From positions 1 through 64,000 of the forward strand of contig JAUSBC010000122.1 of NCBI GenBank assembly GCA_030652215.1: DNA of 64,000 nt, written 5' to 3'. The notes beneath the pieces were generated by a model. That model did no database searches and was not told where the DNA came from. It saw nothing but the letters and a program-made list of their open reading frames with translations. Shown here one piece after another: positions 11,593-53,153 of this stretch. Position 1 is the stretch's first letter. Every line of letters starts with the position of its first letter. The DNA is from Sideroxyarcus sp. Its GTDB lineage: Bacteria; Pseudomonadota; Gammaproteobacteria; Burkholderiales; Gallionellaceae. Made by a program: the position numbers and the translations under genes.

Positions 11593-13116
11593 CTACGCTG
11601 ACGGTTGTTTTACCGGCAGGTAAACCCTGAACGTGGTGCCCTTGCCGACTTCGCTTTTCACTTCAATGCGGCCATGGTGTTTTTCGACAATGCCGTACGC
11701 CAACGACAGGCCCAGGCCGGTGCCCTTGCCTATGGGCTTGGTGGTGAAAAACGGATCGAAGATACGGCGAAGATTCTCGGGCGAAATGCCTTTGCCCGTG
11801 TCTTGCACTTCCACCCAGACTTCATCACCTGCGCTGCCAGTGCGTATCGTGATGGTGCCTTTCGTATCTATCGCCTGTGCGGCGTTGATCAGCATGTTCA
11901 TGAACACCTGGTTGAGCTGCGACGGCATGCATTCCACATCCGGCAGACCGGAGTACTGCTTGACGACTTCCGCCTTGTACTTGATCTCGTTGGCCACGAC
12001 GTTGAGGGTGCTGTCTATGCCCTGCTCAAGGTTGGCATACTGCCAATTGGTTTCGTCGACATGGGAAAAATCCTTGAGATCCTGGACGATGCGCGTGACC
12101 CGCGCCAGCCCGTCCTGCGATTCTTTCAACAGGCTGGGGATATCCTCGACCAGATAAGGATAGTCCACGCTTTTCTTGGCCGCAGCCACTTGCGGAAAGA
12201 CCTTGTCCGGACTGCCGGCCTCTACTGCTTCATAAGCGGTAATCACACTGAACATGTTCCCGACGTACTTGGTCAGCGTTCCCAGATTGGAATTGACGAA
12301 ACCTACCGGGTTGTTGATTTCGTGGGCGACGCCGGCGGCCAGTTGGCCGATTGAGGCCATCTTTTCCGATTGCAGCAACTGCGTCTGGGCGGATGCCAGT
12401 TTTTCGTTGAGCTGTTTCAATTCGTCGTTGTTGGCAAGCAACTTCCGGTTGGCTTGTTCCAGATCAATGGTGCGCAGTTTCACGCGCTGTTCCAGTTCCT
12501 CGTTCAGGACACGCAACGCTTCGTGCTCCACCTTCAGCTCCTGGTTTTTCTGGATCACCTCCAGCGTCTTGTCACCGAGCTTGCCGTACATTTCGTTCAG
12601 GGCTTCCATCAGCACGTTCGCCGACTGGCTCATGAATGCGGTGGCAATGCGAACAGCGTCCTCGTGACTGGAACCGGCCTGCAGCGCAATGATTTCCTGT
12701 CCCATGCGCGTATCCGAACCCAGAATATGTTGCACCAGCCAGTTGGTCAGGTATTTCAGCAAGGGCGCGACGAGTTGATTATTGACATCGTTGCTGCCCA
12801 GCAGAATCTTCGCGGCCACCATGACCTGCGCGGTGAAATGCTGGTGCGCCTTGATATGGGTTGCCTGATGGGCGGCGTCAACCGCGTACTGCTTCATCAG
12901 GTCTTCTTCGGTGTTGAAGTGGTACACCGTGTAATTTGCCAGCTCGGTCAGGATGGCACCCAGTTCTTCGGTGCTGGCCAGGTGTGCATTGATGGCGCCC
13001 AGTCGGTTGATCAGGTCCACCAGCTTGCGGTGTTGTTCGTCCACCACGTCGACGCCGGTATTGAACTTGTTGTCCCAGATGAATGCCTCGATTTTTTCTT
13101 CAGTTGCCATTTCCAT
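11593..13116 (-). CDS. Bacteriohemerythrin-histidine kinase fusion
   Basis: The 507-residue protein fuses an N-terminal hemerythrin domain (about residues 8-137) to a coiled-coil and a histidine kinase. All diiron ligands of bacteriohemerythrin can be assigned: His29, His66, Glu70, His87, His91, His130 and Asp135. The phospho-accepting His265 lies in LAAGVAHEINNP, and the HATPase ends with DTGKGI and GTGLGLSLAYG. No membrane segment is seen, so it is a cytoplasmic sensor that may report oxygen, NO or redox state. ATG 13116 has AAGGTGG upstream; a GTG three codons earlier is less likely. It is the last gene of the signalling cluster. The partner regulator is probably a REC protein of the same cluster. 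Confidence 0.9.
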   Translation of the reverse strand: MEMATEEKIEAFIWDNKFNTGVDVVDEQHRKLVDLINRLGAINAHLASTEELGAILTELANYTVYHFNTEEDLMKQYAVDAAHQATHIKAHQHFTAQVMVAAKILLGSNDVNNQLVAPLLKYLTNWLVQHILGSDTRMGQEIIALQAGSSHEDAVRIATAFMSQSANVLMEALNEMYGKLGDKTLEVIQKNQELKVEHEALRVLNEELEQRVKLRTIDLEQANRKLLANNDELKQLNEKLASAQTQLLQSEKMASIGQLAAGVAHEINNPVGFVNSNLGTLTKYVGNMFSVITAYEAVEAGSPDKVFPQVAAAKKSVDYPYLVEDIPSLLKESQDGLARVTRIVQDLKDFSHVDETNWQYANLEQGIDSTLNVVANEIKYKAEVVKQYSGLPDVECMPSQLNQVFMNMLINAAQAIDTKGTITIRTGSAGDEVWVEVQDTGKGISPENLRRIFDPFFTTKPIGKGTGLGLSLAYGIVEKHHGRIEVKSEVGKGTTFRVYLPVKQPSA

Positions 13117-13205
13117 GCTTGCCACCTTTCAATTTCCGACAATTAATAGCGCCACGTCTCATGCGATATCGGCATGCATTTGCCAACACTGAGCCGAAAT
13201 GCCGC

Positions 13206-14285
13206 TCACGGCTCCGGCTGCTTTACCGGCACCCATACCCTGAATTGCGTACCCTTGCCCACTTCGCTTTGCACTTCCATCCGCCCGTGGTGCTTCTGGA
13301 CGATGCCGTACGCCAGCGACAGCCCCAGCCCCGTGCCTTTTCCGACCGGTTTGGTGGTAAAGAACGGATCGAATATTTTCTGCAGGTTCTCGGGCGGTAT
13401 GCCTTGTCCGGTATCGGCGATCTCCACCCACACCTCGTGGTCTTGCTTGCCGGTGCGTATGGTGATGGTGCCTTTTTCCTTGATGGCGTGGGCCGCATTC
13501 ACCAGCAGGTTCATGAACACCTGGTTGAGCTGCGAGGGCAGGCATTCGACCCCCGGGATGTCGCCGTATTCCTTGACCACAACGGCCTTGTATTTGATTT
13601 CATTGTTGACGATGCTCAGGGTGCTGTCCAGGCCTTTGTGCAAATCTGAAAAATGCCATTCGTCCGATGCATCCGCATGGGAGAAATCTTTCAGGTTCTG
13701 CACAATGACCTTGACGCGGGTAATGCCATCCTTGGATTCTTCCATCAACGCGCGCAGGTCCGTTTTCAAATACGCCAGATCCAGTTTTGCTTTCGCGGCT
13801 TGCAGCCGTTTCAGCACGTCCGGATCGTTGATTGCAGCTTCCGCCTGTTCGTATATTTCGATCATGCCGAAGGCATCCTGCACGTATTTTTCCAGCGTAC
13901 CCAGATTGGAATAAACGAAGCCGATCGGATTGTTGATCTCGTGCGCCACCCCTGCGGCCAGCTGGCCTATCGAGGCCATCTTTTCAGATTGCAGCAACTG
14001 GCTGTGCGCGTCTTCCAGCTTTCTGATCAGAACGCGCTGTTCTTCCTTTTCCTTGAGCAAGGCCAGTTCCGTGCGTTGACGTTCCGAGAGTTGGTTGCGC
14101 AATCCGGAGTTGGCTTCGGTCAATTCCTTCGACATCAAGTCCAGGGAGCGCTCGATCAGCAGGCGTTCTTCGTCTGCGCTTTGGTATGCCTCGTCCACCG
14201 CAGCGATAAACGCCGCCAACTCGGGCGACAACGTTGCAGGATCGCCAAGGTGGCGTTTAATTTGGCGTTGAAGCAGTCTGTGCAA
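13206..14285 (-). CDS. Soluble histidine kinase paired with FIST protein
   Basis: The 359-residue protein has no recognised input domain: a short N-terminal helical region (residues 1-90, with coiled coil) leads to a HisKA domain (His115 in AAGVAHEINNP) and an HATPase domain. It lies three bases after the FIST gene, so FIST may be its sensory partner in trans. The catalytic core is almost identical to those of the kinases at 11593 and 16869, including MASIGQLAAGVAHEINNP and the shared C-terminal region FRVWVPVKQP. Confidence 0.9.
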   Translation of the reverse strand: MHRLLQRQIKRHLGDPATLSPELAAFIAAVDEAYQSADEERLLIERSLDLMSKELTEANSGLRNQLSERQRTELALLKEKEEQRVLIRKLEDAHSQLLQSEKMASIGQLAAGVAHEINNPIGFVYSNLGTLEKYVQDAFGMIEIYEQAEAAINDPDVLKRLQAAKAKLDLAYLKTDLRALMEESKDGITRVKVIVQNLKDFSHADASDEWHFSDLHKGLDSTLSIVNNEIKYKAVVVKEYGDIPGVECLPSQLNQVFMNLLVNAAHAIKEKGTITIRTGKQDHEVWVEIADTGQGIPPENLQKIFDPFFTTKPVGKGTGLGLSLAYGIVQKHHGRMEVQSEVGKGTQFRVWVPVKQPEP

Positions 14286-14288
14286 GTT

Positions 14289-15440
14289 TCAGCGCTCCGA
14301 GAATGTGGTGATGGTCATGGTCTGATTGTGCAACTCGCACTTGGTGATGGCGCCGTGCGGACAGATTTCGCCGTAGGAGTAAAAACCCGCCAGCACGGTG
14401 TTCTTTCCCATCACTTCGCGCACGCCCTCTACTTCTTCCTCGATGCGCTGTTTCAACACCAGCTTGCGTCCAACGCAGCTGACCAGCAAAGCCAGATCCG
14501 GCTCGACCGAGCCGAGCATTTCGTAGCTGGCGCTGGCCGCATCCGCCGCCCCGTCGATGAGGCGGTCGAAATTGGCTTTCATGAGCCGCGCATAGCCGCC
14601 TTCCGGCATGTCGCCGAAGAAAGTCATGCTCTGATCCTCCTCGCTGATCGACGCCACAGAGCGCACCAGCCCGTAGCCCTCGCCGACAGAGTCCTTGCCG
14701 CCCGAGCGCAACGCCAGCGGAAAGCGCAGCGCCTCGGCCGGTCCGGCGTTATTTTCGCCCAGGTATTTTTTGTAGAGTTCAAGCGCGGAGTGTCCGTCCA
14801 ACTCGTACAGAACATTGCCCTTGGAGCGCGTGATCAGGCGCTCCGGTCCGAAAGAATCCCAGCCCCCGAGAGAGCCGTAGCCAACTTTAAAATGCTCGCC
14901 GTAAAAACCCAGCGCCGCGACCACGCCCTCGCACGGCGCGGTGTCCGCGCACACCAGGGTTTGCTGAAAATCGGTGCCGTCTCCGGCCAGACCGCCGGTG
15001 ACGGCCACGTCCGCCGACAGATTCTCGCGCAGACCGCGCGCCAACTCGCTGCCGTTCACCAATAGTCCATCCGAGAGCACCAGCACATGCACCAGTTGTT
15101 GCTGCGCAAGCGCCTGCGCCAAACGCTTGCCCGCCTCCAGGCTTTCGGCTGCCTCGGCGATGACGGTGTGTGCGAGTTTGAGTTCGGTACGTTCAAAGCG
15201 CACCGCCGTCACCACCAGCGAATTGTCGCGCACGCGCGTGCCGCAAATCTCCCCCGAGGTGGAACAGCCAAGCACATGGGCTCCGGGAAAGCGCGCCCTG
15301 ATCTCGTCCAAGCGCTCGGGGTCGCCCAGCAGCCGGCTCGCCCCGAAGACCATCAGCAGGGATGCGTTGCCGTCGAGCGACTCCGCCGTTTCCTTTTGCC
15401 AGCCTCCGTCGGCCGTCCAGTATTGTTGTTCTATTTTCAT
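14289..15440 (-). CDS. FIST-domain sensory protein
   Basis: A 383-residue soluble protein with FIST_N (about residues 25-225) and FIST_C (about 230-365). FIST domains are predicted to bind small ligands, possibly amino acids or their derivatives, and occur in signalling proteins. Recognisable pieces are GCSTSGEICGTRVRDNSLVV, TGGLAGDGTDFQQTLV, GYGSLGGWDSFGPERLITRS and the C-terminal AGFYSYGEICPHG. It is followed after three bases by a kinase with no input domain of its own, suggesting a split receptor. No signal peptide is visible, so the ligand is likely cytoplasmic. Confidence 0.9.
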   Translation of the reverse strand: MKIEQQYWTADGGWQKETAESLDGNASLLMVFGASRLLGDPERLDEIRARFPGAHVLGCSTSGEICGTRVRDNSLVVTAVRFERTELKLAHTVIAEAAESLEAGKRLAQALAQQQLVHVLVLSDGLLVNGSELARGLRENLSADVAVTGGLAGDGTDFQQTLVCADTAPCEGVVAALGFYGEHFKVGYGSLGGWDSFGPERLITRSKGNVLYELDGHSALELYKKYLGENNAGPAEALRFPLALRSGGKDSVGEGYGLVRSVASISEEDQSMTFFGDMPEGGYARLMKANFDRLIDGAADAASASYEMLGSVEPDLALLVSCVGRKLVLKQRIEEEVEGVREVMGKNTVLAGFYSYGEICPHGAITKCELHNQTMTITTFSER

Positions 15441-15489
15441 TGCGTTTGCGCCCTAAATTGGTTTCAGGGGAGATACTCGCCATGCACTG

Positions 15490-16821
15490 CTATTTATCGT
15501 AAACATAAATAATCAATTCCTCGCCGGCCTGCTTGAAACTCCTGATTTGCGTGATCAGTGAAGCGTCCAGAAGGTGGTCTTTTGACAACAGCAATTCGCC
15601 ATGTCCGCTCGTCAAGTCGCGGGAAAGTACCATGCCCGACTTGATCTGGTCCGCACGCAGTGCCAGTTCCACCAAAGGTTGCGACACTTTTCCGCTCGAC
15701 CTCATCACGATCATGAAGGCATCCACCACCGCTGGGTCGTAGCGCAGCCCCCTTCCTTCCTGAATAAACAACACCGCATCGGCTTGCTTCAACCGTTTGC
15801 TTAACAGAGTACCGATCTGGACTGCGTCATACTCATTGGCCAGAGCAATGATGCGTGCACCCAGTGGAATCGCCAACCCTACCAACCTATCCGGATAGCC
15901 CAACCCGTCATAACGCTCATGGTGGCTTCGGATCAGTTTCGCAGCGCCATTCAGTTGCTCCAGGGCCATCAAGGCGGCCTGGCCCTTGACCGGATGCTTG
16001 GCCACCTCAATCCGCTCTTCGCTGGTCAGATTTGCAGACGGTTTTTCCAGCAGGTAGTCCGGCAACCCGATCTTGCCGACATCGTGCAACAGTGCGGCGA
16101 GAAACACGTCCTGCGCCTCCGCATCCTTCATTCCCATCTGTTGGGCAATGTTTCGGGAAAGATCCGCAACCCGATGCGAGTGCCCCGCCATGACGCCTTC
16201 GCGCATCTCGATCAGGTTGGAGAAGACCCGGATCGAGGTAATGAAGCCCTTCTTGAGCTTCTCGTGCGCCACCTCCAGAAATCCCATGGTCTGACGAACT
16301 TCCTCGGTGCGCGCCTTGACCTTCTGCTCGAGGTTGGCATTCAGATCCTTGAGCTCTTCGTTTTGTTTGCGCGTCAGTTCTTCCAGCCCCTTGTTTTCCT
16401 GCTCTAGTTGTTTCTGGCGCAAAGCCTGCTTGATGGCGAGAACGATGTCGTTGTCTTCCCAGGGCTTGGATATATAGCGGTATATATGCCCCTTGTTGAT
16501 GGCGTCGATGGTGGCGCCGATCTCTGCATAACCGGTCAGCAGTATGCGCACCGTGTCCGGCCACCGCTCGTTGACCTTCTCCAGAAACTGCGCCCCGTTC
16601 ATTTCCGGCATGCGCATGTCGGAAACCACGATATCGATGGTCTCGCGCGCCATGACTTCCAATCCCTGTGCGCCGCCCTCGGCCGTGAATATGCGATAGC
16701 CAAAAGGACGGAACAAGCGCTTCAGGGACGACAGCACATTGACCTCATCGTCCACAAACAATATGGTCGCAGGGGGTTGATCTTCGGTCTGTGGCGAAGC
16801 CACTTCCTGTATCTCGTTCAT
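15490..16821 (-). CDS. Response regulator with HD-GYP phosphodiesterase domain
   Basis: A REC domain (residues 18-135; phospho-acceptor Asp68 in VVSDMRMPEMNG, KP at 119-120) joins via a long coiled coil (135-190) to an HD-GYP domain. The catalytic HD is at 246-247 in LLHDVGKIGLPD and the GYP at 308-310 in HHERYDGLGYP. Such proteins degrade cyclic di-GMP to GMP or pGpG. A C-terminal extension of about 75 residues follows. ATG 16821 is used; the TTG two codons before is rejected. It lies between the membrane kinase and the FIST protein and is a natural output for them. Confidence 0.92.
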   Translation of the reverse strand: MNEIQEVASPQTEDQPPATILFVDDEVNVLSSLKRLFRPFGYRIFTAEGGAQGLEVMARETIDIVVSDMRMPEMNGAQFLEKVNERWPDTVRILLTGYAEIGATIDAINKGHIYRYISKPWEDNDIVLAIKQALRQKQLEQENKGLEELTRKQNEELKDLNANLEQKVKARTEEVRQTMGFLEVAHEKLKKGFITSIRVFSNLIEMREGVMAGHSHRVADLSRNIAQQMGMKDAEAQDVFLAALLHDVGKIGLPDYLLEKPSANLTSEERIEVAKHPVKGQAALMALEQLNGAAKLIRSHHERYDGLGYPDRLVGLAIPLGARIIALANEYDAVQIGTLLSKRLKQADAVLFIQEGRGLRYDPAVVDAFMIVMRSSGKVSQPLVELALRADQIKSGMVLSRDLTSGHGELLLSKDHLLDASLITQIRSFKQAGEELIIYVYDK

Positions 16822-16868
16822 TTGCAATTCCGTCTCAATTTATACCTGCTCGCACAGATTCGTTGCAC

Positions 16869-18440
16869 TCAATCGACACGCGGCTGCTCTACCGGCAACC
16901 ACACCCTGAAAGTGGTGCCCTTGCCCACTTCGCTTTGCACTTCTATCCGCCCGTGGTGCTTCTGGACAATCCCGTAGGACAAGGAAAGCCCCAGCCCCGT
17001 CCCCTGTCCGACCGGTTTGGTCGTGAAGAACGGATCGAATATCTTTTGCAGGTGTTCGGATGCGATTCCCTGCCCCGTATCCGCAATCTCAATCCAGACT
17101 TCGTCTCCTGCCCGGCCCGTGCGGACGGTGATGGTCCCGCGCTCCTTGATGGCATGCGCCGCATTCACCAGCAGGTTCATGAATACCTGGTTGAGCTGCG
17201 ACAAAAGGCATTCCACTTCGGGCAGCTCGCCGTACTGCTTGACCACCTCGGCCTTGTATTTGATTTCATTGTTGACGATATTGAGGGTGCTGTTCAGCCC
17301 GCGATGCAGGTCGGCAAAGTGCCACTCGTCGGTTGCGCCCGCATGCGAAAAGTCTTTCAGGTTCTGGACGATGGCCTTGACGCGGCTGATGCCATCCCTC
17401 GATTCTCCCATCAGGGCGTGCAGGTCGGTTTTCAGAAAGGCGATGTCCAGTTTCTGTTTGGCTGCCTGCAACTGTTGCCGAACTTCCGCGTCGGCAATTG
17501 CGCTTTCCGCATGCTCATACATTTCGATCATGCCGAAAGCGTCCTGCACATATTTCTCCAGCATGCCCAGATTGGAATACACGAATCCGATCGGGTTGTT
17601 GATTTCGTGCGCCACGCCAGCCGCCAGTTGGCCTATAGACGCCATCTTTTCCGATTGCAGCAATTGGCTGTGCGCGTCTTCCAGTTTCTGGTTGAGTTGC
17701 CGCATCGACTTGATGTCCGCTTCCAGCGCCTGCTTGGCCAGTTCCAGCTCTTCCGTCCGTGCTTTTACGCGCAATTCCAGTTCCGCCTTGCTCTCGGCCA
17801 GCATCGCCGAGACCTGCTGGAGATTAGTGATGTCGGTGCGTATCGCGATATATTGGCGCGGCAGCCCGTTCTCGTCCGGTAGCGGCACGATGGTCGTTTC
17901 GACCCAATACAGTCCTCCGCCCTTGCTGCGGTTGCACAATTCTCCCTGCCAGGCCTTTCCGCCGGCAATCGTCTGCCACATATTGGAAAAAAAAGCGGCA
18001 TCGTGCACGCCGGACTTGAGAATGCGGTGGTTCTGCCCGAGCAATTCTTCGCGTCCATACTCGCTTATCTGGCAGAACTTGTCATTCACATAAGTGATCT
18101 TGCCGCCGACATCCGTAATGCTCACGATGGCGTGCTGGTCCAGCGCGAACTTGAGCGAACGCAATTCGCCCAGCGATTCGTGCAGGGTTTTGCTGGTATT
18201 TTCAAGCCGGTGAAATTGTTCCGCCATGGGACGAAACAGCACGAAGTAAAGCACCGGCGAAATCAGGACGACCAGCAACGTCGCATCGGTGGCAGCTTCG
18301 CCCAGGGGCGAAAGCCGGGGAAAGCGTTGAAGCAACACCATCACAAGTGCTTCGGCGATAAAAACCGCCATTGAAATAACCAGCAGAACCGCTGCGGGGG
18401 AATCCGTCAGTTTGAATGGCCTGCCTGGTAAAAAACGCAT
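16869..18440 (-). CDS. Membrane PAS-domain histidine kinase
   Basis: The 523-residue kinase has two membrane helices (about residues 16-37 and 52-71), a PAS domain with PAC tail (about 92-206; ITYVNDKFCQISEYGREELLG is typical), a coiled coil and the HisKA/HATPase core with His278. Its last 270 residues closely match the other two kinases of the cluster. The two helices enclose only a short loop, so sensing is probably cytoplasmic through PAS. It is preceded by the HDOD gene and followed by the HD-GYP regulator on the same strand. Confidence 0.92.
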   Translation of the reverse strand: MRFLPGRPFKLTDSPAAVLLVISMAVFIAEALVMVLLQRFPRLSPLGEAATDATLLVVLISPVLYFVLFRPMAEQFHRLENTSKTLHESLGELRSLKFALDQHAIVSITDVGGKITYVNDKFCQISEYGREELLGQNHRILKSGVHDAAFFSNMWQTIAGGKAWQGELCNRSKGGGLYWVETTIVPLPDENGLPRQYIAIRTDITNLQQVSAMLAESKAELELRVKARTEELELAKQALEADIKSMRQLNQKLEDAHSQLLQSEKMASIGQLAAGVAHEINNPIGFVYSNLGMLEKYVQDAFGMIEMYEHAESAIADAEVRQQLQAAKQKLDIAFLKTDLHALMGESRDGISRVKAIVQNLKDFSHAGATDEWHFADLHRGLNSTLNIVNNEIKYKAEVVKQYGELPEVECLLSQLNQVFMNLLVNAAHAIKERGTITVRTGRAGDEVWIEIADTGQGIASEHLQKIFDPFFTTKPVGQGTGLGLSLSYGIVQKHHGRIEVQSEVGKGTTFRVWLPVEQPRVD

Positions 18441-18487
18441 TTCCCCCCCTGCCGATACGCGAAGTTAATAGATAGCTTCGTCTTTTC

Positions 18488-19321
18488 CTATTCCGCCAGC
18501 ATCAGTTGCACCACCGCATCCAGTTGATCCGGCTGCGGCAATCCCGGCTCGATGCGTTGCCAACTCAGTTGCATGCGCTCGCGCAATTTTCTCGGAACTT
18601 TTCCTATCAGCGCTTCGCCTTTGAGCCCGCTTTCCAGCAGCACGGCCACATACACCAAGCCGTTTATCGGCTGGTACGGTTCGTGTTCCGGCACGCGCCA
18701 AAAATGGATGGCGTGCTCGATGTCGGGCGGAAAATTCCAGCGCTTGGCCATTTCCGCCCCAATCTCGGCATGGTCGAAACCCAGCACCGAGTGCTCGACC
18801 TCGATCAGGCTCAGGCCGGACTGCTGCTGTTGCACCACGATCTCGGCGAATTTTTCCGGGATGCAGATACTCAACACGAGTTGGCCGACATCGTAAAACA
18901 GGCCCGATGTGAACGACAGTTGGCGCGGCCCGCCCAGACACTGCGCCAGTGCCTCGGTGTAGGAAGCTACGCGAAAACTGCGCGTCCAGTAGGCATGGCG
19001 GTCGAATTTGCTGTCCTTGGTAGCCGGGAAAGCCTGCGTAAATCCTGCAGACACCACCAGCGAGCGTATCGTGTCGAATCCCAGCACCGTGACGGCAGCC
19101 TGTATCGAACCGACCTCGCGCGACAGGCCGTAAAACGAGGAATTCGCCACCCGCAGCACCCTCGCGCTCAAGCCCTGATCCAGCTCGATCTTTTGCGCCA
19201 TGATGGCGCTGCCCACATTGGCATTTCTGAAGCTGGACATCACTTCCCGCACCGCCATCGGCATCACGGGAAGCTGATGCAGCTTGTCCAGGATCGCATT
19301 CTTGTCTATGGAAGTCGGCAT
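18488..19321 (-). CDS. HDOD-domain protein
   Basis: This 277-residue protein is an HDOD domain (about residues 15-215), related to HD phosphohydrolases but with a degenerate metal site: the expected HD is replaced by YD in LFYDVGQLVLSI, and HAEIGA follows later. HDOD proteins are signalling adaptors in chemotaxis-like and c-di-GMP networks rather than enzymes. The ATG at 19319-19321 begins six bases after the REC-PAS stop. A longer frame to 19402 overlaps that gene and is rejected. Confidence 0.9.
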   Translation of the reverse strand: MPTSIDKNAILDKLHQLPVMPMAVREVMSSFRNANVGSAIMAQKIELDQGLSARVLRVANSSFYGLSREVGSIQAAVTVLGFDTIRSLVVSAGFTQAFPATKDSKFDRHAYWTRSFRVASYTEALAQCLGGPRQLSFTSGLFYDVGQLVLSICIPEKFAEIVVQQQQSGLSLIEVEHSVLGFDHAEIGAEMAKRWNFPPDIEHAIHFWRVPEHEPYQPINGLVYVAVLLESGLKGEALIGKVPRKLRERMQLSWQRIEPGLPQPDQLDAVVQLMLAE

Positions 19322-19326
19322 GTGTT

Positions 19327-20151
19327 TTACCCCTGATCGGTAACAATAACGAGCACGATGCCTTTCGACGCCGATATCTCGCCCATGGGACTGCACCAGC
19401 AATGGACTTGCCGCCCGTTCGGCAGGCGGTATACCACCTTGTCTTCGTATTTGCGGCAGGTATCGCCGTCGTATACACAGTTCAATAATTCGGACGGGAT
19501 GACTTCGCTGGCCATTTCGCCCAGCAACGGCCGCGTGCCCCCTGCCGAAAACAGGTCGTGCGCACTGTGATTGGCCACGGCGATCACGCCATCGTCCCCT
19601 ATACCGATCACTGACACCGGCAGACGTTCCAGCACTTCCTGCGAAACCTGAAGCACCTCAAGGTTGCGCGTCACTTCACGGGTCTTTTCCTCCACGCGCT
19701 GTTCGAGTTCGCGGTTGATCAGCAGCAGCTCCTCGTTCGCCTGCTCAAGGTCGCGTGCCAGGCGCGCATTCTCCATCTTCATTTCATAGCGCTGGAAGGC
19801 TTCTTCGACGTTGGCCCTGAGCAGTTCGTCTTCCCAAGGTTTGGTCAGGAATTTGTAGACCGCGCCTCGGTTGATGGCATCGGTCACGGAATTGAGTTCG
19901 GTGTATCCGCTAAGCACGATGCGCACGGTATCGGGATAGCGCTCGCGCACTTTGCTCAGAAACTCCACGCCCGTCATGCCGGGCATGCGCTGGTCGGAAA
20001 TGATCACGCCGACTTCGTTTTGCTCCAGCAACGCCAGCCCGGCTTCGCCGCTGTTGGCGCGCAGGATGTTATATCCATCGCGGCGCAGCAGCCGCACGAG
20101 GGCGGAGGTAATATTCTCCTCGTCATCAACCAGTAGCAGCGTGCGTTCCAT
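19327..20151 (-). CDS. Response regulator with PAS-like C-terminal domain
   Basis: A 274-residue protein: REC domain (residues 3-120; Asp53 in VIISDQRMPGMTG), coiled coil (120-160) and a PAS-like domain with VIGIGDDGVIAVANHSAHDL and a cysteine-containing end region (CVYDGDTCRKYEDK, HCWCSP). No enzymatic output domain is seen, so it may be a phospho-relay or adaptor. Start ATG 20151 overlaps the stop codon of the preceding gene (TGATG). The REC domain is a close paralogue of that of the preceding GGDEF-EAL protein. Confidence 0.88.
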   Translation of the reverse strand: MERTLLLVDDEENITSALVRLLRRDGYNILRANSGEAGLALLEQNEVGVIISDQRMPGMTGVEFLSKVRERYPDTVRIVLSGYTELNSVTDAINRGAVYKFLTKPWEDELLRANVEEAFQRYEMKMENARLARDLEQANEELLLINRELEQRVEEKTREVTRNLEVLQVSQEVLERLPVSVIGIGDDGVIAVANHSAHDLFSAGGTRPLLGEMASEVIPSELLNCVYDGDTCRKYEDKVVYRLPNGRQVHCWCSPMGEISASKGIVLVIVTDQG

Positions 20152-21956
20152 CACCCCTCCAGTGGAAAGTTGAAATGCTCGCCGTTTTGCAGCAACTGCG
20201 TCATTTCCGCGGCCGGTACAGGACGGCTGAACAGGTATCCCTGCATTTCATTGCAGCCATTTTTACGCAACTGGGTGAGCTGTGCCGTGGTTTCAACCCC
20301 TTCCGCTATCACGTTCAAACCCAGACCATGTCCCAGCGCGATGATCGCGGCAACGATGGCGGCATCGTCTGGATTGCTGGAAAGGTCGCGCACGAAAGAC
20401 TGGTCGATCTTGAGGCTGCTGATCGGAAAGCGTTTCAAATAACTCAGGCTTGAATAGCCGGTGCCGAAATCGTCGATGGAAAAACGAATACCCGTCTCGT
20501 GCAGTTTGACCAGCGTTTCGACCGCCCCGGCCGCGTTGCTCATCAGCAGGCTTTCCGTCAACTCCAGCTCGATAGTCCCCAATGCGGGATCGAGATCGTT
20601 TTCTTTCAGTATGCCCAGCACCAGGGTGGCGAAATCCGGCTGCTTGAACTGTAGCGTGGATAAATTGACCGCGATATGCACGCCAGTAATGCCGGCAGTT
20701 TGCCATGCGCGAGCCTGCTTGCACGCGGCGCGCAATATCCATTCGCCTACCGGCAGGATCAAGCCCGTCTCTTCCAGCAGGGGAATGAACTCGGCGGGCG
20801 CCACCAGACCGCGCTCCGGACTTTGCCAGCGCACCAGGGCTTCCACGCCGACGATCACGCCGCTCACCAGATCAACCTTGGGCTGGTAATGAAGCACGAA
20901 TTCTTCGCGCGCCAAGGCGTGGCGCAACTCGGTTTCCAGCTTCAGGTGCTGCCACGCCGTGGCATTCATTTGTCCGGCGTAATACTGGAAGTTGTTGCGG
21001 CCCTCGGCCTTCGCCTGGTGCAGCGCCGCGTCTGAATTCATCAACAGAGTGGTGGTGCTGACCCCGTCGACCGGGTAGATGCTGATGCCGATGCTGAGCG
21101 TGACGAATATTTCGTTATCTCCCGCCAGCATGGGAGTGCTCGCGAACGAATCAAGAATCTTTTGCGCCACTTCACCCGCCGCGTGGGTGGCCTTCACCCC
21201 GGTCAATACCAGGGAGAATTCATCCCCGGCGGTGCGCGCCACGGTATCGCAGGCGCGCACAAACCCGCCCAGTTTCTCCGCCACCGCCTGCAGCAACTGA
21301 TCGCCGACCGTATAACCGAATGAATCGTTGACGAGCTTGAAACGGTCCAGGTTGACTGACAATACCGCCACCATGCATTGGTCGCGATGCGCCCGGGTGA
21401 GCTCCTGGTCAAGGCGGTCGAGAAACAGCAAACGGTTGGGAAGGTTGGTCAGCGTGTCGAAATGCGCAATATGGTCGATCTGGCCGTCTTTGCGCTCTAT
21501 CGCGGCGGCCAGTTCCAGGTTGACCTGGGCCAGCAATTCGTTGGCGGACTGGATTTGCTGCAACAGTTGATCCTTCTCCTGCGCCAGCTCATGGCGCCAG
21601 AACGCTTCCATCACGTCGACGCGCAATACTTCGTTTTCCCAAGGTTTGGTAAAGAATTTATAGATTGCACCGCGGTTGATGGCCCCGGTCACAGTATCGA
21701 AGTCCCCGGTCCCGCTCAGGACGATGCGTATGGTCTTGGGATAGAGTTCCTTGACCTGGGAAAGGAATTCCACACCGGTCATTCCCGGCATGCGCTGGTC
21801 AGAGATCACGACGCCGACTTCGTTCTGCGCCAGAATCTCAAGACCTTGCCTGCCGCTGTTGGCGTGCAGAATCTTGTACCCGTCGAACCTCAGCAGACGG
21901 TCCAGCGCAGCCAAGACATCTTCTTCGTCGTCAACCAATAACAAAGTACGTTCCAC
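20151..21956 (-). CDS. REC-GGDEF-EAL cyclic-di-GMP signalling protein
   Basis: This 601-residue protein has REC (Asp53), a coiled coil, GGDEF and EAL domains. The cyclase motif is AGDEF rather than GGDEF, which may reduce activity. The EAL domain retains EALVRW, ELTES, DDFGTGYSSL and AEGVET, consistent with a working c-di-GMP phosphodiesterase. The start is GTG 21956, which has GGGGGG upstream and aligns with the paralogous REC gene; the longer ATG at 22076 is less likely. It heads the signalling cluster, and its promoter would lie in 21957-22127. Confidence 0.9.
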   Translation of the reverse strand: MERTLLLVDDEEDVLAALDRLLRFDGYKILHANSGRQGLEILAQNEVGVVISDQRMPGMTGVEFLSQVKELYPKTIRIVLSGTGDFDTVTGAINRGAIYKFFTKPWENEVLRVDVMEAFWRHELAQEKDQLLQQIQSANELLAQVNLELAAAIERKDGQIDHIAHFDTLTNLPNRLLFLDRLDQELTRAHRDQCMVAVLSVNLDRFKLVNDSFGYTVGDQLLQAVAEKLGGFVRACDTVARTAGDEFSLVLTGVKATHAAGEVAQKILDSFASTPMLAGDNEIFVTLSIGISIYPVDGVSTTTLLMNSDAALHQAKAEGRNNFQYYAGQMNATAWQHLKLETELRHALAREEFVLHYQPKVDLVSGVIVGVEALVRWQSPERGLVAPAEFIPLLEETGLILPVGEWILRAACKQARAWQTAGITGVHIAVNLSTLQFKQPDFATLVLGILKENDLDPALGTIELELTESLLMSNAAGAVETLVKLHETGIRFSIDDFGTGYSSLSYLKRFPISSLKIDQSFVRDLSSNPDDAAIVAAIIALGHGLGLNVIAEGVETTAQLTQLRKNGCNEMQGYLFSRPVPAAEMTQLLQNGEHFNFPLEG

Positions 21957-28180: not shown

Positions 28181-29293
28181 ATGCCATTCGAAATCATCGG
28201 ACAGAACGACAGCAGAACGCCCCATCCGACCATCGCCATTATCGACGACGAGTTTACCAGCCGGATCATCCTCGACAAGATCGTGCGCAGCTTGCAGAAG
28301 GAAGCCATGGTGCATGCCTTTGCCTCCCCGCTGGGTGCGATTGATTGGCTGAGGCTCAACCACCCTGACCTAATCCTGGTGGACCACCTGATGGATGAGA
28401 TGTCGGGGCTGGAGGTGATCAAAACGATACGTCGCATTCCCCACCTGGAACACGTTCCCGTCATCATGATTACCGTGTCGAACGATAACGAAATCCGCTA
28501 CAAGGCACTGGAGGCCGGAGCCACCGAATTCCTTTCAAAACCCTTCAACCACTACGAGTGCCAGATCCGTTGCAACAACCTGCTCACCCTGCACATGCAC
28601 CACAAGGACGTACTGCGCCGCTCCGAGGATCTGGAAAAGGCCGTCTCCGAAGCGACAAAGCGGATACTGGAGCGCGAACAGGAAACCCTGTTCCGCCTGG
28701 CGCGGGCGGGCGAATACCGGGATTCGGATACCGGCAACCATGTGTTGCGCATGGCCAGGTTCTCGCGGCTGATCGCCGAAGGCATGGGTCTGGACGAAAA
28801 CCGCTGCAGCCTGATCGAGATGGCCTCGCCCATGCACGACATCGGCAAGATCGGCATTCCCGACAACATCCTGCTCAAACCGGGCAAGCTGGATCACGAG
28901 GAGTTTTCAATCATGAAAACGCATTCCCTGATCGGCTACCACATCCTCAAAAACAGCCACTCCAAGTACATCAGCCTCGGCGCCGAGATCGCGCTCTCGC
29001 ACCACGAGCGCTACGACGGCGGCGGCTACCCGAACGGCCTCAAGGACAAGTCCATCCCGCTGGAGGCACGCATCGTCGCTGTGGCCGACGTGTATGACGC
29101 TCTGACATCAGAGCGTCCCTACAAAAAGGCGTGGACGAATCAGGAAGCGCTGGAATATATCTATTCGAACAAGGGCTCGCATTTCGACCCGGGTTGTGTG
29201 GAGGCATTCCTGATGCAGTTCAGCAAGATCAGTCTCATTCAGCAGCAATTGCAGGATGCTTCGCCATCGCAGAAAGTGCGGGTGTGGCAATGA
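28181..29293 (+). CDS. rpfG: RpfG-type response regulator, HD-GYP phosphodiesterase
   Basis: A 370-residue protein: REC domain (residues 16-135; Asp68 in LILVDHLMDEMSG), linker helix and HD-GYP domain with MHDIGKIGIPDNIL and HHERYDGGGYP. In Xanthomonas RpfG degrades c-di-GMP when RpfC is activated by the fatty-acid signal DSF. The assignment to RpfG rests on the adjoining rpfC, overlapped by ATGA at 29290-29293, and on convergent rpfF. AGAGGAA precedes the ATG. Confidence 0.92.
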   Translation: MPFEIIGQNDSRTPHPTIAIIDDEFTSRIILDKIVRSLQKEAMVHAFASPLGAIDWLRLNHPDLILVDHLMDEMSGLEVIKTIRRIPHLEHVPVIMITVSNDNEIRYKALEAGATEFLSKPFNHYECQIRCNNLLTLHMHHKDVLRRSEDLEKAVSEATKRILEREQETLFRLARAGEYRDSDTGNHVLRMARFSRLIAEGMGLDENRCSLIEMASPMHDIGKIGIPDNILLKPGKLDHEEFSIMKTHSLIGYHILKNSHSKYISLGAEIALSHHERYDGGGYPNGLKDKSIPLEARIVAVADVYDALTSERPYKKAWTNQEALEYIYSNKGSHFDPGCVEAFLMQFSKISLIQQQLQDASPSQKVRVWQ

Positions 29294-31803
29294 ACGACAA
29301 GCTCGACTATTTCATCCGGCAGGTCCGGCAGCGTGAGGGCGAGCATGAACAATCGCTGTTGCGGATGTTCTTCGCTTTTCCAATCTTCCTTTATCTGTTT
29401 GTCGAGTTCTATTTCGTCACGCCGACATCTATCGGCATACCTGTATTTGTGTTTTCTGCCGTCTGGTTTGCCTGCTCAATCCTGCTGATCATTTACATTA
29501 TTTACAAACGCAATACATCCAGAAAAAGACAATGGCTGGCAATGTTTGCCGACATAACTGCCGTGAGCATTGGCATGCTGATGACCGAGGAAGCGGGCGT
29601 GTTGTTTTACGGAATCTATCTATGGGTCATCACCGGAAACGGCATCCGTTACGGCAGGGAGTCGCTCATTAGCGCATATGTAGCAAGTTTGATCGGACTT
29701 TCGGCGGTCATTTTTCTGAACGACTACTGGCATAGCCACCTGCGCATCGCAATTGGTCTGTGGCTCACCCTGCTATGCATCCCACTGTATATATTGAAAT
29801 TGCGCGGACAACTAAACGATGCGCTGGAGAAAGCGCAGGCAGCCAACAAGGCAAAGAGCGACTTTCTTTCAAATATGAGCCACGAAATGCGCACCCCACT
29901 AAATGGAGTGATTGGCGCCAGCGACTTGTTGATCAATACCCGACTGGACGAAGAACAGAAGGACCTGACCGGAACCTTGAAAAAATCTGCCCAACTCCTG
30001 CTCAAACTGATCGACAACATACTTGATCTCTCCAAGATTGAGAGCGGGAAGGTTGCCTCGGAAAAAGTGGATTTCGATCTGCATAAATTGGTCAACAGCA
30101 CACTTGAAATGTTCCTGCCCCAAGTTGAAAAGAAAGGAATCGGCCTATCTGTCCGTTTCACTCCGGAAACATGCTTTATGCTGCAAGGCGATCCGCTGCA
30201 TCTGCAACAGGTCATCATCAATCTGATAGGCAATGCGATCAAGTTCACCAGCAAGGGCCGGGTTGAACTCAGGATAGGCACGGTACAACAGGATGAACAC
30301 CACACCCGCATTCGCTTCGAGGTGATCGATACGGGAATAGGAATTGCCCCGCAAGCGCAAGCCAGAATTTTCGACAGTTTTACCCAGGCCGATCACAACA
30401 TCACTCGCACTTACGGCGGTACCGGACTGGGCACCACGATTTCAAAACAGCTGGTTGAATTGATGGGTGGCACGATGGGTGTACAGAGCGAACCGGGTAT
30501 CGGCAGCATCTTCTGGTTTGAAGCCCCCTTTGCCAAACAGCCGGCCGCAATTCTTGGAAACTCAATTCTTACACTGGAACAATTATATGTTCTGACCATA
30601 GGATTGCCGCATACCGACCAACTAGCCGTCACCGACTATGCAAATAGCTGGGGCATTCGCTGCGAACATGCCGCGTCTCTGACGCATTTCTTTTCCCACC
30701 TGATCGATAAAGATGTCGCTCGACCGGACAATCTGGCGATTTTGTGCCTTCCTCAGAATATCGGTATGACCGCGAAAGATTTCGTCGCGAATATCCATGA
30801 GTTGCGCGGAAAACAGAAACTATCGCCAATACTGCTCAATCCCGATCTGCACAACCACAATGAAAAAGAATATCTGGATGCCGGATATTCATGCCTGTTA
30901 CGCATGCCTCTCGACAAGACATTGCTGTTCAACGCATTGCACGGAATTGTGGCCCCGCGCCCCTCGGCTGGGGTTATCTCATTCAAGGAACACTACGAAC
31001 GCAGCACGGCCAACAAGCGTGGCGTTCGCATCCTCGTCGCCGAAGACAACGGCACCAACCGGCAGATTATTGAAAAAATACTGCTGCATGGAAATCACAA
31101 GGTTGATCTGGTAGAAAACGGCGAGCAGGCACTGGATAAACTGGAAGAAAAAACATACGACCTATTGATACTGGATTTGAATATGCCGCAAATGGGCGGA
31201 TTGGAAGTCGTGAATATCCACCGTGCGCTGCTCAGACAACCGCTGGACATACCTGTCATCATCCTTACCGCCAACGCCACTCCCGAAGCAAAGCAAGAAT
31301 GCGAACGTGCCCGCATTGACGCCTACCTGACCAAACCTGTTGACGCATTGACCCTGCTCGACACTGTCGCCCGCTTGACGCTGACACCACCAAGAACCGA
31401 TGCTCCGGTGATCAAGCACAACGCGGAACAGAATGTTCGTGGGATTATCAATGAAGTCACACTGCACCATCTAGCGCTATTAGGCGGAAATCAGGAAGAT
31501 TTCTTAGGCACTGTGATCTACGGCTTCCTGACCGAAACAGACAAACTGCTTGAAGCCATGCGCATCGCACTGGAGAAACAGGAGTACGCTTCATTCAAGG
31601 AATTGGCCCATATTTTGAAAGGAAGCTCGGGAAACGTCGGCGCCGACGTGTTGTTTTCAGTATGCAGTCGGATACTGGCTCTCGCCAGCACCGACTTGGA
31701 TAAGTCAGCCCCAAAATTGATGGGAGAAGCGCTTGACTGTTACCCTGCCACCCGGAAATCTCTGCTGCATTATTTGCATGGAGCCAACCAAGCATCCATA
31801 TAA
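29290..31803 (+). CDS. rpfC: RpfC-type hybrid histidine kinase, DSF sensor
   Basis: The 837-residue protein has five or so membrane helices (about residues 28-170), a HisKA domain (His198 in SNMSHEMRTPLNG), HATPase, a degraded pseudo-receiver-like stretch, a true REC domain (578-695; Asp629 in LILDLNMPQMGG) and a C-terminal HPt domain (His774 in ELAHILKGSSGNVG). This order is that of RpfC. ATG 29290 overlaps the rpfG stop codon; the open frame to 29131 is inside rpfG. It ends three bases before the convergent rpfF stop. Confidence 0.93.
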   Translation: MNDKLDYFIRQVRQREGEHEQSLLRMFFAFPIFLYLFVEFYFVTPTSIGIPVFVFSAVWFACSILLIIYIIYKRNTSRKRQWLAMFADITAVSIGMLMTEEAGVLFYGIYLWVITGNGIRYGRESLISAYVASLIGLSAVIFLNDYWHSHLRIAIGLWLTLLCIPLYILKLRGQLNDALEKAQAANKAKSDFLSNMSHEMRTPLNGVIGASDLLINTRLDEEQKDLTGTLKKSAQLLLKLIDNILDLSKIESGKVASEKVDFDLHKLVNSTLEMFLPQVEKKGIGLSVRFTPETCFMLQGDPLHLQQVIINLIGNAIKFTSKGRVELRIGTVQQDEHHTRIRFEVIDTGIGIAPQAQARIFDSFTQADHNITRTYGGTGLGTTISKQLVELMGGTMGVQSEPGIGSIFWFEAPFAKQPAAILGNSILTLEQLYVLTIGLPHTDQLAVTDYANSWGIRCEHAASLTHFFSHLIDKDVARPDNLAILCLPQNIGMTAKDFVANIHELRGKQKLSPILLNPDLHNHNEKEYLDAGYSCLLRMPLDKTLLFNALHGIVAPRPSAGVISFKEHYERSTANKRGVRILVAEDNGTNRQIIEKILLHGNHKVDLVENGEQALDKLEEKTYDLLILDLNMPQMGGLEVVNIHRALLRQPLDIPVIILTANATPEAKQECERARIDAYLTKPVDALTLLDTVARLTLTPPRTDAPVIKHNAEQNVRGIINEVTLHHLALLGGNQEDFLGTVIYGFLTETDKLLEAMRIALEKQEYASFKELAHILKGSSGNVGADVLFSVCSRILALASTDLDKSAPKLMGEALDCYPATRKSLLHYLHGANQASI

Positions 31804-53007: not shown

Positions 53008-53057
53008 CCGCCCTACCCCTCCTGCGTGTCGAGTGTGACACCCTCGATAAATAAGGA

Positions 53058-53153
53058 GGCGAGCCTTACCCCCGGCACTTGCACCGCTTGGCTGTGGCTG
53101 CTTCCTTCCGGACCTGACCAGATTCACCAAAGTGCAATGCGGGGAGACCCGCC
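53058..53153 (-). ncRNA. ffs: 4.5S signal-recognition-particle RNA
   Basis: The minus strand carries the SRP RNA domain IV hallmark GGTCAGGTCCGGAAGGAAGC, followed by AGCCA. Flanking sequence pairs into a long stem (GGCGGGTC at the 5' end with GGCTCGCC at the 3' end; GCATTGCAC opposite GTGCAAGTGC). The about 96-base size fits the bacterial short SRP RNA, and a position upstream of dnaX is common. Exact ends are estimated from the outer pairing. Confidence 0.95.

Follow-up and report, generated by a model that had tools for sequence, protein, structure and literature searches.

How FIST proteins relay their signal to their partners is an open question in the field, and a locus in the 64,000-nucleotide stretch of Sideroxyarcus sp. 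DNA analysed here (contig JAUSBC010000122.1, positions 1 to 64,000; hereafter the window) raises it together with a second one, namely whether eight adjacent minus-strand genes at 11593-21956, encoding a FIST protein, three histidine kinases and three receiver (REC) proteins among their products, belong to one cyclic di-GMP (c-di-GMP) signalling system. Comparison with relatives supports a co-conserved c-di-GMP signalling unit, made of a seven-gene core and one further kinase that is seen in one relative. Moreover, the soluble kinase encoded next to FIST opens with a domain, named NT here (the first 73 codons, 14067-14285, minus strand), that is new in being absent from both Pfam and NCBIfam while tied to FIST.

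Open reading frames (ORFs), Pfam matches and motifs bear out the eight minus-strand genes and the domains that the original prediction had assigned to them. In transcription order, these genes encode a REC-GGDEF-EAL response regulator (20151-21956, GTG start), a REC-PAS protein with no recognised output domain (19327-20154), an HDOD protein (18488-19321, 277 residues from an ATG 5 bp past the REC-PAS stop), a membrane PAS histidine kinase (16869-18440, its membrane helices judged by eye from the translation), a REC-HD-GYP response regulator of the NosR family (15490-16827), a stand-alone sensor protein with FIST_N and FIST_C (14289-15440), the soluble histidine kinase that would be the partner of FIST (13206-14285) and a hemerythrin-histidine kinase (11593-13125). 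The gaps between them are -4, 5, 47, 41, 49, 3 and 80 bp, with a TGATG at the joint of the first two genes, so that the close spacing and the start/stop contacts claimed earlier are also found. The HDOD match (179.9 bits) was obtained on a longer ORF of 304 residues, REC-PAS reaches 21.3 bits for its PAS, just short of the Pfam cut-off of 22.6, and HisKA falls under the Pfam cut-off in two kinases and barely over it in the PAS-kinase.

All catalytic motifs sought are intact in the window copies, with few changes across seven rows per gene; the meaning given to them is general knowledge. The first response regulator carries the phospho-acceptor Asp, AGDEF (ADDEF in one of the seven rows) and an EAL motif within a domain that keeps IDDFGTGYSS and EGVE, the HD-GYP domain reads HD..HHERYDGLGYP (GFP in two of seven), and the kinase H, N and G boxes are preserved. 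The hemerythrin motifs H, HxxxE, HxxxH and HxxxxD, whose residues we take to include the iron-binding ones, are present in all seven rows, window included, and the bacteriohemerythrin models are passed with 96.8 bits (NF033749, cut-off 84) and 100 bits (TIGR02481, cut-off 51.75). The number and kind of iron ligands agree with those in the available text of PMC9388753.

The source genome is a 3.64 Mb assembly of 128 contigs, 89.85% complete. In the family, represented by 120 genomes counting this one, FIST is matched in 39 at E 1e-40, and a close ortholog (69-83% identity) occurs in eight genomes besides this one. In five of these eight, REC-GGDEF-EAL, REC-PAS, HDOD, REC-HD-GYP, FIST, kinase and hemerythrin-kinase follow each other in identical order at 70-83% identity (73-81% for REC-GGDEF-EAL across six relatives). 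Two further loci are interrupted by contig ends, leaving six uncut, and the sixth of these, G016, has six of the seven core genes (its REC-PAS found by tblastn) and the PAS-kinase, without the hemerythrin-kinase. Among relatives with a close FIST ortholog, G016 is the only one to share the PAS-kinase with the window. The reading as a single c-di-GMP signalling cluster, with several inputs and domains for both synthesis and breakdown, is then supported by domains, motifs and synteny, and conservation in relatives holds for the seven-gene core; however, eight genes as one fixed unit are rejected, the PAS-kinase being local. Looser groupings with some of the cluster genes were seen at five loci (L071, L093, L101, L124 and L135). 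As general context, the available text of PMC3770913 describes many GGDEF/EAL and kinase genes in both Sideroxydans ES-1 and Gallionella ES-2, and many hemerythrins in ES-1.

The soluble kinase had been described as a kinase without input domain. No recognised sensor domain is indeed present, but the FIST-linked NT domain at its N terminus had been overlooked. No Pfam model matches the window NT; a Pfam scan of 55 NT members returned 39 families at E up to 1, each in at most two members and with a best E of 0.00012 in one, whereas NCBIfam gave a single match for the window NT, to an unrelated chaperone (E 0.0095), and no family in more than one member. No description of NT was found in the literature, in searches that went no further than FIST-kinase terms. 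With an iterated profile, NT is found at the start of the gene that follows FIST in 77 of 80 named loci, and is missing from this place in L102 (contig end), L115 and L125. In these loci, the ORFs adjacent to FIST amount to 77 of 77 for NT, 48 of 73 for kinases, 8 of 34 for GGDEF and 0 of 15 for HDOD. The outputs behind NT, assigned with a small domain set, are 50 kinases, 8 GGDEF/EAL proteins and 1 HD-GYP protein, with 18 unassigned, and Pfam on ten chosen NT proteins added a SpoIIE phosphatase (L127), PAS alone (L142 and L090) and two proteins without match (L144 and L132).

The NT-SpoIIE phosphatase of L127 (11223-12203) lies behind a FIST gene in a metagenome-assembled genome titled Bacteroidetes. 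Short NT proteins stand beside FIST in L144 (11151-11468, 105 residues), L132 (11158-11634, 158 residues) and L110 (11142-11486, 114 residues), and in L144 and L132 they are followed by kinase and REC genes.

Since the named loci had been selected by FIST, NT was also searched in genomes not chosen for FIST. In 150 genomes of the phylum Pseudomonadota, own genome included, 41 matches were obtained in 33 genomes; FIST_N lies at most 1.5 kb upstream on the same strand in 38, is cut by a contig start in one and is absent in two, so that NT stands behind a FIST gene in 39 of 41 cases, or in 38 of 40 leaving out the window copy. For 148 genomes of another phylum, two of three NT matches are behind FIST, one of the two belonging to the centre genome, itself part of the NT model. 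For 36 of the 80 loci, the majority of them contributors to that model, the search was extended to the entire genome; of the 38 matches obtained, 2 lie away from the known FIST loci and lack FIST, and the other 36 coincide with those loci. An adjacency rule applied over 64 NT loci found 59 adjacent, and in L154 FIST is just upstream but past the allowed overlap. The 20 NosP-class loci, taken with flanks of 1.5 kb, showed no NT. A first pass with a single sequence had also picked up two kinases of L071 and one of L140 that do not follow FIST, and these were dropped by the later profile.

Because NT accompanies FIST in front of outputs that are unrelated to each other, and because short proteins with NT also stand free, it would be the site where FIST engages its partner. 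On this basis, a slight preference is given to a scheme of at least two FIST coupling classes, in which the non-NosP class, with records of many phyla, would use the NT domain of about 73 residues for docking, placed before kinases, c-di-GMP enzymes or phosphatases or as a free adaptor, and in which the window cluster would feed a three-kinase c-di-GMP hub by NT. If NT marks the direct partner, FIST partners would become predictable in any genome, and a short construct would be available for binding experiments and fusions.

The three kinases of the cluster are closely related, with pairwise identities of 82, 67 and 67% between catalytic cores, the highest value being that of the PAS-kinase and the soluble kinase. 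In a tree of the 31 rows that bore the cutting motif (a sample with seven relatives and 14 of the 80 named loci as input, no row from L093 or L101 and long branches flagged), the kinase and PAS-kinase rows of the genus, 10 in all, group together in one clade (100/100), five hemerythrin-kinases of the genus form a separate one (100/100), and the kinase and PAS-kinase of G016 are sisters. These identities and the tree suggest that the PAS-kinase would most simply be a local duplicate of the kinase core with a different input. The PAS of this kinase aligns with the first of the PAS regions in the NifL model (133.7 bits, under the 242-bit cut-off), a resemblance that points to a probable flavin cofactor. 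None of the three reaches the T2SS_HK subfamily (NF038348; 383.5, 399.5 and 390 bits against a cut-off of 450). Regarding the receivers, those of REC-GGDEF-EAL and REC-PAS are 72% identical, and they match the receiver part of the NosR model with 221.5 and 184.9 bits, under its 400-bit cut-off.

Based on these data, we favour with moderate confidence a multi-input two-component hub that would set c-di-GMP from gas- or redox-type signals, with FIST acting via the NT of the adjacent kinase. FIST would bind a small ligand as an auxiliary sensor and dock on the NT of the neighbouring soluble kinase, shifting its autophosphorylation or phosphatase activity. The hemerythrin-kinase would supply a diiron oxygen or redox input and, in this lineage, the PAS-kinase would add a membrane-anchored NifL-like PAS input, probably flavin redox. 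All three kinases would then phosphorylate the same receivers, of which REC-HD-GYP may account for breakdown and REC-GGDEF-EAL for synthesis or breakdown of c-di-GMP, next to REC-PAS, with HDOD as a possible protein-interaction output. Here we infer the docking, the ligand, the phosphotransfer, the sharing of receivers and the sign of the response, the sharing being suggested by the similarity among kinases and among receivers. Kinase paralogy, synteny, motif conservation, the NosR-model matches of the three receivers, the genome-wide FIST-NT linkage, the varied outputs behind NT and the short NT proteins beside FIST are counted for the hub, as is the precedent of NosK, a kinase target of NosP that has no recognised sensor domain, according to the available text of PMC12570481. 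If it is a hub, the cluster would offer a compact example of several gas or redox signals meeting in the control of c-di-GMP, the host being probably a bacterium that lives in oxygen-iron gradients.

The same precedent bears on novelty. The original prediction knew of no described system with this arrangement, a statement that is too strong because the trio REC-HD-GYP, FIST and soluble kinase equals, in order and domains, the published nosRPK of Burkholderia pseudomallei. In that operon, as far as the available text describes it, a REC-HD-GYP protein, a FIST protein and a kinase without recognised sensor domain have a c-di-GMP output, NosP alters the autophosphorylation of NosK, and about 130 residues before the DHp domain of NosK contain no recognised domain (PMC12570481). 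The window trio is likewise contiguous on one strand in the R-P-K order, with a kinase devoid of a recognised sensor domain. However, the HD-GYP of nosRPK is reported there as degenerate (HG-GTP), whereas that of the window is intact, the NCBIfam equivalog model does not class the window FIST as NosP, and the window adds five more genes to the described three, including two further kinases.

The likeness raises the possibility that the cluster is an enlarged nosRPK nitric-oxide system, with FIST as a NosP-like heme-nitric oxide sensor and the extra genes as side branches. In line with this, the REC-HD-GYP passes the NosR model (NF053512, 572.4 bits, cut-off 400), an NnrS gene is present in the own genome, NirS-type nitrite reductase is matched in three of the five cluster-bearing relatives covered (G016, G075 and G081), and the window FIST has the NosP architecture, FIST_N and FIST_C in a stand-alone protein. 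Nonetheless, we consider this system unlikely. The window FIST scores 62.7 bits on the NosP model (NF041558), far from the equivalog cut-off of 450; every one of the 73 rows of an alignment of the window FIST with 72 relatives is weak on it (best E 1.9e-24); and a genuine NosP exists in the own genome on contig C70 (L194), with 466.6 bits. For residues, 20 proteins of the NosP class, of which 13 pass the cut-off and 7 do not, were compared with the window and 24 rows taken from its 72 relatives. At the position of window G193, a putative heme ligand of the NosP class, 18 of 20 NosP-class rows have His, while the window and 24 of 24 sampled rows of its class have Gly; conversely, the window class has H118 where all 20 NosP-class rows have Phe. 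On the other side, H371 of the LHNQT motif is common to both classes, as are two Cys (59 and 322). Also, no match to NirS or NirK, as a source of nitric oxide, was found in the own genome, which is about 90% complete, nor a NirS in G078 and G107. The identification of the window FIST as NosP is consequently rejected on its score, the separate NosP and the missing His. The NosP-class gene of C70 is followed by one for a PAS-GGDEF protein. Foldseek with a model of FIST and NT returned FBXO22 and the folds of chorismatase and of orotic- and cyanuric-acid hydrolases, and no solved sequence relative was found at E 0.01.

Several observations weigh against a hub reached by FIST through NT. Five NT copies lack an adjoining FIST (L180, L181, L222, which is the same place as L234, L233 and L235), the own genome has one NT, beside the window FIST, against five FIST genes, and its C23 FIST, 45% identical to that of the window, has no NT behind. 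The AlphaFold model of FIST and NT (predicted template modelling score 0.82, predicted local distance difference test 89) shows no docking, because FIST alone (9 rows, 0.57 for the former score) gave no usable baseline. In the survey of NosR-family proteins over the 150 genomes, where scoring was limited for most genomes to the 10 best candidates, the NosR cut-off is passed in six other genomes and FIST is adjacent in one alone, G205 passing it without any FIST match; because of this, the NosR name is weak evidence of function, and it may over-predict nitric-oxide function. In addition, the receiver of REC-HD-GYP is merely 42-45% identical to the other two, and of the six uncut relatives five lack the PAS-kinase and one the hemerythrin-kinase. 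Upstream of the FIST-less NT copies, the neighbours look by eye unrelated or, in L235, like another PAS signalling gene, and the NosR-family members without adjoining FIST gene are those of G249, G257, G205, G134 and G261.

The FIST-less copies, together with the predicted structure of NT, one short and one long helix that look coiled-coil-like, would fit a domain that is a mere dimerising signalling helix inherited by descent, with FIST touching the kinase elsewhere. However, NT precedes unrelated outputs and stands free in short proteins, still linked to FIST, and it is missing from the 20 NosP-class loci, six of them with kinase ORFs nearby, which makes a mere helix improbable. Finally, three separate two-component pathways, merely co-located and with neither receiver sharing nor integration, would suit the divergent HD-GYP receiver and the PAS- and hemerythrin-kinases being optional across relatives, but are rather poorly compatible with similar kinase cores, an order kept across species and two of three receivers at 72% identity, and this is the alternative to which we give least credit.

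Against other known systems, the favoured hub shows both likeness and difference, taking the cited papers in their available text. The NosP-NahK-NarR operon of Legionella pneumophila likewise joins FIST, a kinase and a diguanylate cyclase/phosphodiesterase response regulator; as described there, it comprises one kinase and one regulator, with no HD-GYP, HDOD or hemerythrin kinase (PMC8846402, PMC11237717). In the H-NOX/HnoK/HnoB/HnoD network of Shewanella, an auxiliary gas sensor likewise acts on a kinase with several c-di-GMP regulators, but H-NOX takes the place of FIST and one kinase is described (PMC8846402). The hemerythrin domain of characterised bacteriohemerythrins also governs c-di-GMP turnover, a Bhr-HD-GYP coming likewise from an iron oxidiser; in the accounts available these proteins are a chemoreceptor, a diguanylate cyclase, an HD-GYP and an ATPase, whereas in the window the hemerythrin forms part of a histidine kinase. 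The literature search, judged by titles and the opening of abstracts, found no publication on the complete gene set, most subscription papers being outside its coverage.

A consensus scan for promoters and terminators gave no excess over shuffled sequences. An AlkZ-like gene (PF06224, 10523-11587) begins only 5 bp after the hemerythrin-kinase stop and may therefore be co-transcribed with the cluster; no match to it at 60% identity was found in the fetched loci of the eight relatives. Elsewhere in the window, a hybrid histidine kinase with REC and Hpt domains is encoded at 29131-31803 on the plus strand, and a bacterial small signal recognition particle RNA lies at 53055-53153 on the minus strand.

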